Part shown: positions 2,129 through 28,653 of the stretch, piece after piece
How the letters are laid out: every line of letters starts with the position of its first letter
Numbering within the stretch: the first letter of the stretch is position 1
Source of the DNA: Variovorax sp.
Lineage (GTDB): Bacteria; Pseudomonadota; Gammaproteobacteria; Burkholderiales; Burkholderiaceae_C
Direction: 5' to 3'
DNA length: 64,000 bases
Assembly: GCA_004210915.1 (NCBI GenBank)
Contig: SEGS01000010.1
Span: forward strand, 1-64,000
Translations under genes and position numbers: made by a program
The notes under the pieces: generated by a model
What the model was told of the DNA's origin: nothing
The model's database searches: none
What the model saw: only the letters and a program-made list of their open reading frames with translations

Positions 2129-3160
2129 ATGAACAAGCGCCATCTGCTCCAGTCCTTCCTTGCCGCCTCCGCCCTGAGCTTCGGGCTGGGCGCTTCAGCG
2201 CAGACCGTGACACCGATCAAGTTCCAGCTCGACTGGCGCTTCGAGGGCCCGGGCGCTTTCTTCACCCACCCGACGGCCAAGGGCTACTTCAAGGCCAAGG
2301 GCCTGGACGTCACGGTCGATGCGGGCAACGGTTCGGGCGGCGCCGTCACGCGGGTGGCTTCGGGTGCGTACGACATGGGCTTCGCCGACCTGGCGGCGCT
2401 GATGGAATTCCACGCCAACAACCCTGATGCGCCCAGCAAGCCGGTGGCCGTCATGATGGTCTACAACAACACGCCGGCTTCGGTCATGACGCTCAAGAAA
2501 AGCGGCATCACCAAGCCCGCCGACCTGACCGGCAAGAAGCTCGGCGCCCCGGTGTTCGACGCCGGCCGCCGCGCGTTCCCGATCTTCGCCAAGGCCAACA
2601 ACATCGGCGCCGTCACCTGGACCGCGATGGACCCGACATTGCGCGAAACCATGCTGATGCGCGGCGATATCGACGCCATCACGGGCTTCACCTTCACCTC
2701 GCTCCTGAACCTCGAGGCGCGCGGCGCCAAGACGGCCGACGTGGTGATCCTGCCCTACCCCGATTTCGGCGTGAAGCTCTACGGCAACGCAATCATCGCG
2801 TCGCCCAAGCTCATCAAGGAGAACCCGGCGGCGGTCAAGGCCTTCCTGCTGGCCTTCACGCAGGGCGCGAAGGAAGTCATCGCCAACCCGGCCGTCGCCA
2901 TCGAGTCGATCAAGGCGCGCGACGGCATCATCAACAGCGCGCTCGAAACGCGCCGCCTGAAGCTCGCAATCGACACCGTGATCAACACGCCCGATGCGCG
3001 CACCGAAGGCTTCGGCCAGATCAATGCCGGCCGCCTGTCGCTGATGGCGTCGCAGGTGTCGGACGCCTTCGCCACCAAGTCGCGCGTCAATGCCGATGCG
3101 GTGTGGAACGGCAGCTTCCTGCCCAGCACGGCCGAACTGAACATCCTGCCGAAGAAGTAA
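2129..3160 (+). CDS. ABC transporter substrate-binding protein, NMT1/THI5-like (SBP1)
   Basis: Signal peptide, TPIKFQLDWRFEGPGAFFTHPTAKGYFKAKGLDVTV...; paralog of 3980 ORF. Confidence 0.88.
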   Translation: MNKRHLLQSFLAASALSFGLGASAQTVTPIKFQLDWRFEGPGAFFTHPTAKGYFKAKGLDVTVDAGNGSGGAVTRVASGAYDMGFADLAALMEFHANNPDAPSKPVAVMMVYNNTPASVMTLKKSGITKPADLTGKKLGAPVFDAGRRAFPIFAKANNIGAVTWTAMDPTLRETMLMRGDIDAITGFTFTSLLNLEARGAKTADVVILPYPDFGVKLYGNAIIASPKLIKENPAAVKAFLLAFTQGAKEVIANPAVAIESIKARDGIINSALETRRLKLAIDTVINTPDARTEGFGQINAGRLSLMASQVSDAFATKSRVNADAVWNGSFLPSTAELNILPKK

Positions 3161-26549: not shown

Positions 26550-27242
26550 TCAGATGGCGACGAGCTGCCGGACACCCTGCGCTTCCATGTCCTTGCCTTG
26601 CCCGCGCGCGATGACTTCGCCGCGCTCCATCACCAGGTATTCGTCGGCCAGTTCCTCAGCGAAGTCGTAGTACTGCTCGCACAGCACGATGGCCATGTCG
26701 CCCCGGTCGGCCAGCATGCGGATGACGCGGCCGATGTCCTTGATGATCGATGGCTGGATGCCCTCGGTCGGCTCGTCGAGGATCAGCAACTTCGGCCCGG
26801 GCGCGAGCGCCCGCGCGATCGCGAGCTGCTGTTGCTGGCCGCCCGACAGGTCGCCACCACGCCGATTCATGAACTGCTTGAGGATCGGGAACAGCTCGAA
26901 CAGCTCGGCCGGAGTCGGCGTGCTGCCGCGCTTGTACGCGAGCCCCATGCGCAGGTTCTCTTCAACGGTGAGCCGCGCGAAGATCTCGCGCCCTTGCGGC
27001 ACGAAACCCATGCCGGCGCGGGCGCGCTCGTAAGGCGTCTTCCTGTGGATCGGCTGGCCGTCGAATTCGATGCTGCCGCTCTTGATGGGCACCAGGCCCA
27101 TCAAGCTCTTGAGCAGCGTCGTCTTGCCGACGCCGTTGCGGCCGAGCAGCACGGTGACTTTGCCGAGCGAGGCGGTGAAGCTGACGTCCCGCAGGATGTG
27201 CGAGCCGCCGTAGTACTGGTGGATGTTTTTGACTGTGAGCAT
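26550..27242 (-). CDS. urtE: Urea ABC transporter ATP-binding subunit UrtE
   Basis: MLTVKNIHQYYGGSHILRDVSFTASLGKVTVLLGRNGVGKTTLLKSLMGLVP. Confidence 0.92.
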   Translation of the reverse strand: MLTVKNIHQYYGGSHILRDVSFTASLGKVTVLLGRNGVGKTTLLKSLMGLVPIKSGSIEFDGQPIHRKTPYERARAGMGFVPQGREIFARLTVEENLRMGLAYKRGSTPTPAELFELFPILKQFMNRRGGDLSGGQQQQLAIARALAPGPKLLILDEPTEGIQPSIIKDIGRVIRMLADRGDMAIVLCEQYYDFAEELADEYLVMERGEVIARGQGKDMEAQGVRQLVAI

Positions 27243-27288
27243 GGCTTGGGTCTCGGGTCAGATCTTTGGCGATGGATGGGCCGCCCAG

Positions 27289-27510
27289 CATGCGCTGCGT
27301 GCGCCGCCAGCCCACTGCGCCGGCCGCTTCGCGGCTCCCCTGCAGTGCTCGCGCAGTCGGGCCGTCGCAGAACTCGCTGCGTTCGCTACGCTCACTTCGC
27401 TCAGACAGCTGCGACGAGTCAGATGACGAAGCGCGTGTCCTTCGGCACGCGCGCCCGACTGCGCTGCGCGCTTCGGCGGCGCAGAGGGCTGGCAGCGCAC
27501 GCAGCACATG
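27289..27510. repeat. Nested palindromic repeat element E1
   Basis: Outer arms 27289-27320/27479-27510 (29/32 complementary), GCGCAGTCGGGC/GCCCGACTGCGC at 27351/27453, inner GTCGCAG/CTGCGAC at 27364/27409. Confidence 0.75.
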
Positions 27511-27567
27511 CCGGGCTCGTGGCTGCGCAAAGGGCGGTGTCCTCTTCGATCAAGCGCAACGTCCCGC

Positions 27568-27749
27568 GTCGGCGGGCGGTATGCCTGCGGGCGAGCGTCA
27601 GCCTGCGGCGAGCACCGCAGCCAAAGACGGATCAGGGCCGCAGCTGTTTGAGCGAAGCGAGTTCTGCGGACCCCGTCTTTGGGAAGGAGCAGCAGCGAAG
27701 TCCGAAGGACCGCAGGCGCCAGCCGCCCGCAGGCATACCGTCCGCCGAC
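27568..27749. repeat. Nested palindromic repeat element E2
   Basis: Outer arms GTCGGCGGgCGGTATGCCTGCGGGCG / its near-complement at 27724-27749; AAAGACGG/CCGTCTTT at 27623/27673; core GCAGAACTCGCT..TTCGCTCAnACAGCTGCG shared with E1. Confidence 0.75.
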
Positions 27750-27777
27750 GACGCACCGCACCCGCACAACAGCGAAC

Positions 27778-28653
27778 TCAGCGCCCAAGGTAAACCTCGA
27801 TCACCCGCTCGTCCGCCTGCACCTCGTCCAGCGTGCCTTGCGCCAGCACCGAGCCGTCGCACAGCACCGTGACAATTTCCGAGATGGTGCGGATGAAGCT
27901 CATGTCGTGCTCCACCACCATCAGCGAATGCTTGCCCTTGAGCGTCAAGAACAGCTCCGCGGTACGCGCCGTCTCCTCGTCGGTCATGCCGGCGACGGGC
28001 TCATCGAGCAGCAGCAGCTTCGGGTCCTGCATCAGCAGCATGCCGATCTCGAGCCACTGCTTCTGGCCGTGGCTCAGGTTGCCGGCCATGCGGCTCACGC
28101 TGTCGGCCAGGTGAATGGTCTCGAGGATCTCGGCCAGCCGGTCGCTCTGGGCCGAATCGAGCTTGAACAGTATCGAGCGCTTCACACCCTTGTCGGTCTT
28201 GAGCGCCAGTTCGAGGTTCTCGAACACGGTGAGATGCTCAAAAACCGTCGGCTTTTGGAACTTGCGGCCGATGCCCAACTGCGCGATCTCGGCTTCCTTG
28301 TGTCGCAAGAGGTCGATGGTGCTGCCGAAGAACACCGTGCCTTCGTCGGGGCGCGTCTTGCCGGTGATGATGTCCATCATCGTGGTCTTGCCGGCGCCGT
28401 TCGGGCCGATGATGCAGCGCAGTTCCCCGGGCGCGATGTCCAGGCTCAACTTGTTGATCGCCTTGAAGCCGTCGAAGCTCACGCTCACGTCTTCCAGATA
28501 CAGGATGCGGCCGTGCGTCACATCGACTTCGCCGGGCGTCGCGAGGCGGCCGTAGCCGGCCTCTCGGCCACCGGACTCGGTGTTCTGTCCCGGCGCGATG
28601 TCCTTGACGCGCGCGATGCGCTGGGCGCCCTGCTCCATCAGGTCGGGCGTCAT
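27778..28653 (-). CDS. urtD: Urea ABC transporter ATP-binding protein UrtD
   Basis: ILYLEDVSVSFDGFKAINKLSLDIAPGELRCIIGPNGAGKTTMMDIITGKTRP. Confidence 0.92.
   Translation of the reverse strand: MTPDLMEQGAQRIARVKDIAPGQNTESGGREAGYGRLATPGEVDVTHGRILYLEDVSVSFDGFKAINKLSLDIAPGELRCIIGPNGAGKTTMMDIITGKTRPDEGTVFFGSTIDLLRHKEAEIAQLGIGRKFQKPTVFEHLTVFENLELALKTDKGVKRSILFKLDSAQSDRLAEILETIHLADSVSRMAGNLSHGQKQWLEIGMLLMQDPKLLLLDEPVAGMTDEETARTAELFLTLKGKHSLMVVEHDMSFIRTISEIVTVLCDGSVLAQGTLDEVQADERVIEVYLGR

Follow-up and report, generated by a model that had tools for sequence, protein, structure and literature searches.

A composite of two inverted hairpin units between urtD and urtE in Variovorax, and the occurrence of its 19-nt apical loop in other bacterial phyla

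Architecture of the urtD-urtE junction

The window, a 64,000-nt stretch of a Variovorax sp. contig (SEGS01000010.1), carries the urea transporter operon urtABCDE on its minus strand, with the two ATP-binding subunit genes urtE and urtD set apart by a long insert and urtC, urtB and urtA coming after urtD (Table 1). The initial annotation described a 535-bp non-coding spacer at a place where urt genes normally adjoin, and both points hold, as the gap between the two reading frames is exactly 27243-27777 without a plausible gene, and 21 of 30 junctions fetched from Variovorax have gaps of 7-19 bp (relatives that lack the insert therefore exist). Neither a sigma-70-type promoter nor a U-tract terminator is present in 27243-27777, and no G+C hairpin followed by a U tract, as expected of an intrinsic terminator or attenuator, is found there.

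The spacer is occupied by two large imperfect nested palindromes, E1 of about 234 bp and E2 of about 184 bp (222 and 182 bp had been claimed). Their RNA folds are far more stable than those of dinucleotide shuffles, with minimum free energies of −171 against −127 for E1 (z of −8.8) and −113 against −79 for E2 (z of −7.3). The core that they had been reported to have in common lies on opposite strands, plus for E1 and minus for E2, so that the units face in opposite directions. The extra 18 nt or so noted earlier in E1 resolve into two additional tandem copies of a 9-nt unit, GARCGNAGY, which is present three times in E1 and once in E2; read on the minus strand, the E1 apex is TGTCT-GAGCGAAGT-GAGCGTAGC-GAACGCAGC-GAGTT. 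The palindromes otherwise have the apex TGTYTGAGCGNAGCGAGTT, which contains d(GCGNAGC). The triplicated unit recurs in three sibling copies of the same genome (C55, C124 and C100), and among 283 distinct loops the 9-nt unit is found once in 279 and three times in four.

Table 1. Features of the urtD-urtE junction and of a second palindrome in related composites (strand "." denotes no orientation).
Feature	Position	Strand	Remarks
urtE, urea ABC transporter ATP-binding subunit	26550-27242	-	ORF; TIGR03410, 341 bits, E 2.4e-102, over cut-off; downstream of insert
Composite E1+E2 insert, non-coding	27243-27777	.	Between urtD and urtE; 7-19 bp here in relatives
E1 nested palindrome	27283-27516	.	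Outer arms 27283-27322/27477-27516, 90% complementary; inner arms 27351-27362/27453-27464, 100%
E1 apical loop, TGTCT-(GARCGNAGY)x3-GAGTT	27371-27407	-	Expanded form of the 19-nt loop
E1-E2 spacer	27517-27566	.	Intrastrand-triplex (TM) motif here in sibling copies; unrelated sequence instead in the window
E2 nested palindrome	27567-27750	.	Outer arms 27567-27593/27724-27750, 96% complementary
E2 lower apical stem A, CCAAAGACGG	27621-27630	+	Pairs with 27673-27682; covaries among Variovorax copies
E2 5' ATCA bulge	27631-27634		After stem A
E2 upper stem B, CCGCAG	27638-27643	+	Pairs with CTGCGG at 27664-27669
E2 apical loop, TGTTTGAGCGAAGCGAGTT	27645-27663	+	Central d(GCGNAGC) mini-hairpin; exact pan-phylum motif
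urtD, urea ABC transporter ATP-binding subunit	27778-28653	-	ORF; TIGR03411, 391 bits, E 2.9e-117, over cut-off; upstream of insert
Second palindrome, CTTACGTTCTTTTGGCGAAGCAAAAGAAAGTAAG	L181, about 1220-1290 and 3045-3110; L348, spacer

Copies of the insert in Variovorax

A genome-wide search for relatives of E1 and E2 shows that they are not unique. BLAST of the insert against its own genome, a 4.16-Mb draft of 139 contigs in which any copy number is a lower bound, returned four full E1+E2 composites with 81-83% identity (C110, C55, C124 and C100) and partial copies on six further contigs (C111, C92, C130, C21, C136 and C81). These copies sit between co-directional genes, which from reading of the sequence we take to be of the glgB/glgX type for C55 and of the nirD/nitrate reductase type for C100. 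Insert-like elements are also present in nearly all of 24 genomes of the genus, and the named matches come from Variovorax, Xenophilus, Extensimonas and a plasmid of V. paradoxus (CP063167.1, G014).

Pairing of the stems has been maintained among the Variovorax copies to a degree that is clearly beyond chance. Stem A is 89% paired, compared to 47% when the arms are shuffled, and stem B is 99% Watson-Crick paired over 58 distinct copies, compared to 53%; in each case none of 1000 shuffles reached the observed value. Several sibling composites (L031-L034, L339, L351 and L355) have a TM-like motif of the E. coli type, CCCTCNCCC-N3-6-GGGNGAGGG-N3-GGGNGAGGG or a close variant, between the hairpins, which is missing from the window copy, and the outermost arms of some Variovorax composites form a second palindrome with its own GCGAAGC apex (last row of Table 1).

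The apical loop in other phyla

The loop has the near-invariant 19-nt consensus TGTYT-GA-GC(GNA)GC-GA-GTT. Literature quoted in PMC4686876 describes its centre, d(GCGNAGC), as an ultra-stable GNA mini-hairpin of DNA in which N is free, and N is free in the present elements too. A nearest-neighbor DNA model gives no mini-hairpin for the isolated 19-mer, so that its special stability rests on the literature. The insert has the make-up of a loop-tagged palindrome, that is, a near-invariant 19-nt apex on complementary but variable stems, with E1 in a three-unit expanded form.

Among 84,980 species genomes scanned, the exact apex TGTYTGAGCGNAGCGAGTT was found in at least 118 stretches, and the matches listed include Pseudomonadota, Bacteroidota, Bacillota, Nitrospirota, Fusobacteriota, Desulfobacterota, Patescibacteria and others. 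The same 19-mer caps wholly different stems in Marinobacter, Haemophilus, Flavobacterium, Parabacteroides, Lachnospiraceae and Nitrospirales, and in nearly all of the matches listed it is the tip of a hairpin, the stems being unrelated to one another. At least five consecutive Watson-Crick pairs abut the loop in 92 of 126 loops (73%) among the matches listed, compared to 2.3% with swapped flanks. The loop pattern occurs in 21 of 399 genomes of the phylum, which have as many as 36 copies apiece; its reverse, used as a control, occurs in none of the 399. For 155 hairpins with stems of at least 6 bp the loop is exact in 147, has one change in seven and two to four changes in none, an invariance that is overstated to some degree because most loci were picked by exact match to the motif; the inclusion of partner hairpins and BLAST-fetched copies lessens this selection bias without removing it. 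In two species of one genus (L430 of G451 and L432 of G417) a hairpin pair lies between two genes that are presumably holC and valS, and here both stem arms have changed in a matched manner around an essentially unchanged loop.

A search of E. coli gave no match, near-matches to the 32-mer in plasmids and phages have mostly chance-level E-values, and a match in a lactobacillus rolling-circle plasmid retains only part of the loop. Many IMG/VR matches represent a coding match within one phage gene and were set aside as uninformative on hairpins. The exact 19-mer does occur in several inovirus-like contigs of about 10 kb (L236, L262, L289 and similar), in non-coding sequence where the conserved phage genes give way to variable cargo; these contigs encode what we read as a Zot-like protein. 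In the literature, 15-nt cores of the loop appear in no open-access paper searched (subscription literature being mostly outside the search), and the open-access matches listed for 12-nt cores include nothing recognizable as a bacterial repeat.

Genomic placement and insertion sequences

The loci are placed predominantly between tandem or convergent genes, with 34 tandem, 10 convergent and one divergent among 45 Variovorax loci and 23 tandem, 14 convergent and six divergent among 43 places in low-GC genomes, although the gene calls behind these contexts are crude. The low-GC genomes have the motif on the gene strand in eight cases and on the opposite strand in 15, and thus show no sense-strand bias. 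In several genera the units form mostly inverted pairs with 150-500 bp between them, and within pairs the loop strands diverge in Variovorax and converge in G660. For one genome the places listed first hinted at a replication-strand bias, which disappeared in the full list, where inverted pairs are seen. The presence of the motif is patchy among closely related genomes.

Some hairpin pairs enclose transposase genes. An IS110-family transposase gene (Pfam) lies between two hairpins at L181:1220-3115 and at L182, both in G049 and encoding the same 321-aa protein, and three G660 loci (L424, L425 and L426) have transposase genes, which from reading we take to be IS3-like and IS481-like, between hairpin pairs about 1.7 kb apart. 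IS110 was considered as a mobilizer and rejected, since it is found between hairpins only in the two G049 copies, is missing from other copies and is replaced by other transposases in G660. We take the IS110 and IS3/IS481-like genes as later inserts into copies that are otherwise gene-free. REPs are known targets of insertion sequences (PMC1525189).

Search for a mobilizing partner

A single-copy Y1_Tnp (RAYT-like) gene is present in 58 of 61 Variovorax genomes. Its protein has the HFH and YIDLNP motifs, as in subclass 2.1, which has been reported as not REP-associated, and none of 30 loci (L191-L220) has a hairpin within 1.5 kb of the gene. Several of the Variovorax Y1 loci inspected have TGTCCCC-type repeats downstream, without the present hairpins, and the gene next to several of them is presumably gltB. 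Among further Y1 loci from motif-bearing genomes a hairpin is near only one, in which the Y1 gene is a degenerate fragment; Y1 was not seen in nine of 24 motif-bearing genomes of other taxa, and it is present in motif-free genomes (e.g., G024, G042, G044 and G052). Linkage to RAYT/Y1 is thus not supported in the genus or in these 24 genomes. No transposase recurred among the neighboring genes when the ORFs around 118 named loci were compared by all-against-all BLAST, and no mobilizing protein was found.

Gain and loss at the junction

Comparison of the 30 Variovorax urtD-urtE junctions gives a view of the turnover of these elements. The hairpin is present in six junctions including that of the window, with gaps of 338-746 bp, and also in G054 (261 bp) and G006. 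On a tree of urtD and urtE the filled and empty junctions are intermixed, which requires at least five changes, four of them forced by well supported branches, and the sister pairs G054/G048 and G020/G057 differ in whether the junction is filled or empty. Empty junctions share short spacers with more distant species (CGGAGGAACCGAMGCC in G048 and G049, GGAATCGATTTC in G057 and G046), so that gains are favored over losses at this site. Several other junctions, e.g., the glg one, are occupied in more than one species, and two elements from one junction in different species have a lower similarity (median 334 bits) than two from different junctions of a single genome (674 bits). This pattern of turnover corresponds either to recurrent insertion at favored junctions or to genome-wide homogenization of old elements. 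The outer arms are inverted repeats, and no target-site duplication is recognizable relative to the empty sites of G048, G049 and G057. Two other urtD-urtE spacers, of 99 and 141 bp (L342 and L364), carry unrelated small palindromes, and the junction therefore seems prone to acquiring palindromes in general.

Interpretation of the insert

The units are long, nested inverted repeats in which the stems are free to change while the arms stay complementary and the apex is almost invariant. They are dispersed between genes and have repeatedly gained or left the same junctions, urtD/urtE among them, and in other phyla this loop is found at the tip of unrelated stems. We give an even chance to the explanation in which two inverted units make up the insert, both from a loop-tagged, REP-like family of single-stranded DNA hairpins that is read by a putative trans-acting factor. 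The unit would be recognized as folded single-stranded DNA, on the lagging strand or in a cruciform, and the GCGNAGC mini-hairpin together with the tandem GA steps would provide a rigid apex. The lack of a sense-strand bias of the motif argues for recognition of DNA rather than RNA. A widely distributed putative factor may read this apex and thereby spread or maintain the element, by analogy with TnpA-REP, which is thought to spread or maintain REPs. The insert of the window would then be a tolerated passenger: the urtD-urtE transcript would run through two very stable hairpins, which may weaken the coupling of urtE to urtD or protect the upstream mRNA, any such effect on urt mRNA being a passive side effect. 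We count against this explanation that a mobilizing protein was not found and that no target-site duplication is visible.

Covariation of the stems is by itself no proof of function, since template-switch repair could keep the arms complementary without selection, and the stronger argument is an apex that stays invariant on stems of unrelated sequence. It is unlikely, though well worth keeping in view, that the elements are ancient and vertically inherited, homogenized in each genome by gene conversion and frequently lost, with their arms kept complementary by such repair and not by selection. Orthologous sites that are occupied across species, yet by elements less similar than copies within a genome, are consistent with this history, as are the matched arm changes at the presumed holC/valS site; precise independent losses would hardly restore the short spacers shared by the empty junctions of sister genomes, and homogenization does not by itself explain a loop that is invariant across phyla. 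We consider it rather unlikely that these are REP/REPIN-type elements with an unusual hairpin moved in trans by a RAYT (a Y1 HUH transposase). Their extragenic inverted pairs, IS hot spots and tandem or convergent bias resemble those of REPs, and the near-universal Y1_Tnp gene of the genus and the AAGCGNAGCGC apex of enterobacterial GTAG REPs (PMC2817692) fit as well, but the subclass 2.1-like nature of that gene, its distance from the hairpins and its uneven co-occurrence with the motif in other taxa speak against it.

It seems improbable that the insert is retained because its RNA, folded between the two cistrons, attenuates or stabilizes the urtE part of the operon mRNA, an effect that the earlier reading had raised as a possibility. 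The predicted hairpins are very stable in the absence of a terminator or promoter, and comparable inserts occur between genes of other operons, e.g., glgB/glgX and nirD/nitrate reductase gene; other species have them at the same junctions. The urtD-urtE junction is nevertheless empty in most relatives, convergent sites are used too, and the loop is conserved whatever the neighboring genes; since the motif has no sense-strand bias relative to genes, regulation of urtE is not favored as the reason for the existence of the family. It is more doubtful still that the loop serves on single-stranded DNA as a signal to a host protein, such as a priming or processing site, and not the tag of a mobile element. 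The 19-mer in the non-coding part of inovirus-like contigs would agree with such a signal, but only a few phage contigs carry it, the plasmid near-matches are mostly at chance level and the motif is patchy in closely related genomes.

Returning to the loop-tagged hairpin family, a nearly invariant loop on unrelated hairpins across phyla suggests that these REP-like elements form a class not described before. More tentatively, and with somewhat less than an even chance in our estimation, this may be a pan-bacterial class of dispersed DNA hairpins that is defined by the conserved single-stranded apex TGTYTGAGCGNAGCGAGTT built on d(GCGNAGC) rather than by its stems or foot. A putative widespread factor for ssDNA binding or transposition would recognize this apex, and the hairpins would enter the same operon junctions time and again. 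Palindromic repeats are normally recognized through their stem or foot sequence and are tied to RAYTs. Hairpins with unrelated stems and one common 19-nt apex in at least five phyla point to a common recognition event, and with its short exact sequence one can look for the factor and take a census of such elements in any genome. The filled and empty Variovorax junctions are natural experiments on the tolerance of operons for large hairpins, and they bear on why some junctions get struck repeatedly.

Comparison with known repeat systems

The proposal that the insert is a REP- or MITE-like mobile element stands in part. The elements are related, dispersed, palindromic, extragenic and inserted in an operon; they are not REPs or MITEs in the strict sense, given the missing GT[AG]G foot, units of 180-235 bp and no linked Y1 gene. 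Rfam 15 gives no match above the gathering score in the window, and in 15 motif-bearing loci of several phyla only a tmRNA.

MITEs are likewise short non-coding palindromic inserts without a gene, but the present elements have no visible target-site duplication, and neither a cognate transposon nor ends in common with an autonomous one were found. TIRtrons and TIRYTs (PMC3733652) are likewise long, partly self-complementary inverted repeats that are dispersed in genomes including that of S. maltophilia. The TIRYT gene is flanked by the GGGGWSAS TIR motif, whereas the Y1 genes examined here are without the present hairpin except for one degenerate fragment. The TM intrastrand-triplex motif (Holder, 2015, PMC4666352), CCCTCNCCC..GGGNGAGGG..GGGNGAGGG, lies between the hairpins of sibling copies, is absent from the window copy and is a separate component of the composite.

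The closest likeness is to REPs, BIMEs and REPINs (GTAG and CGTC types; Di Nocera, 2013, PMC3733652; Nunvar, 2010, PMC2817692; REPIN paper, PMC3116915), which are also dispersed extragenic palindromes. Both are multi-copy, often form inverted pairs, lie in tandem or convergent gene gaps, avoid promoter-only regions (PMC3733652) and are hit by insertion sequences, and some enterobacterial GTAG REPs carry AAGCGNAGCGC, a GCGNAGC sequence, at or near the apex (PMC2817692). The present units are nested and 180-235 bp long (E1 234, E2 184), compared to 20-40 bp for REP units. No GT[AG]G foot tetranucleotide is present in E1, E2 or the sibling units, the CGTC at the foot of E2 is base-paired with the other arm and is not an unpaired tag at one end, and no cognate RAYT (Y1_Tnp) gene with copies of the repeat on its flanks was found. 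REPs have their identity in the foot tetranucleotide, whereas that of the present elements lies in the 19-nt apical loop, with stems that are free to vary. The elements belong with the extragenic palindromes, and their apex-defined identity sets them apart from the REPs described.
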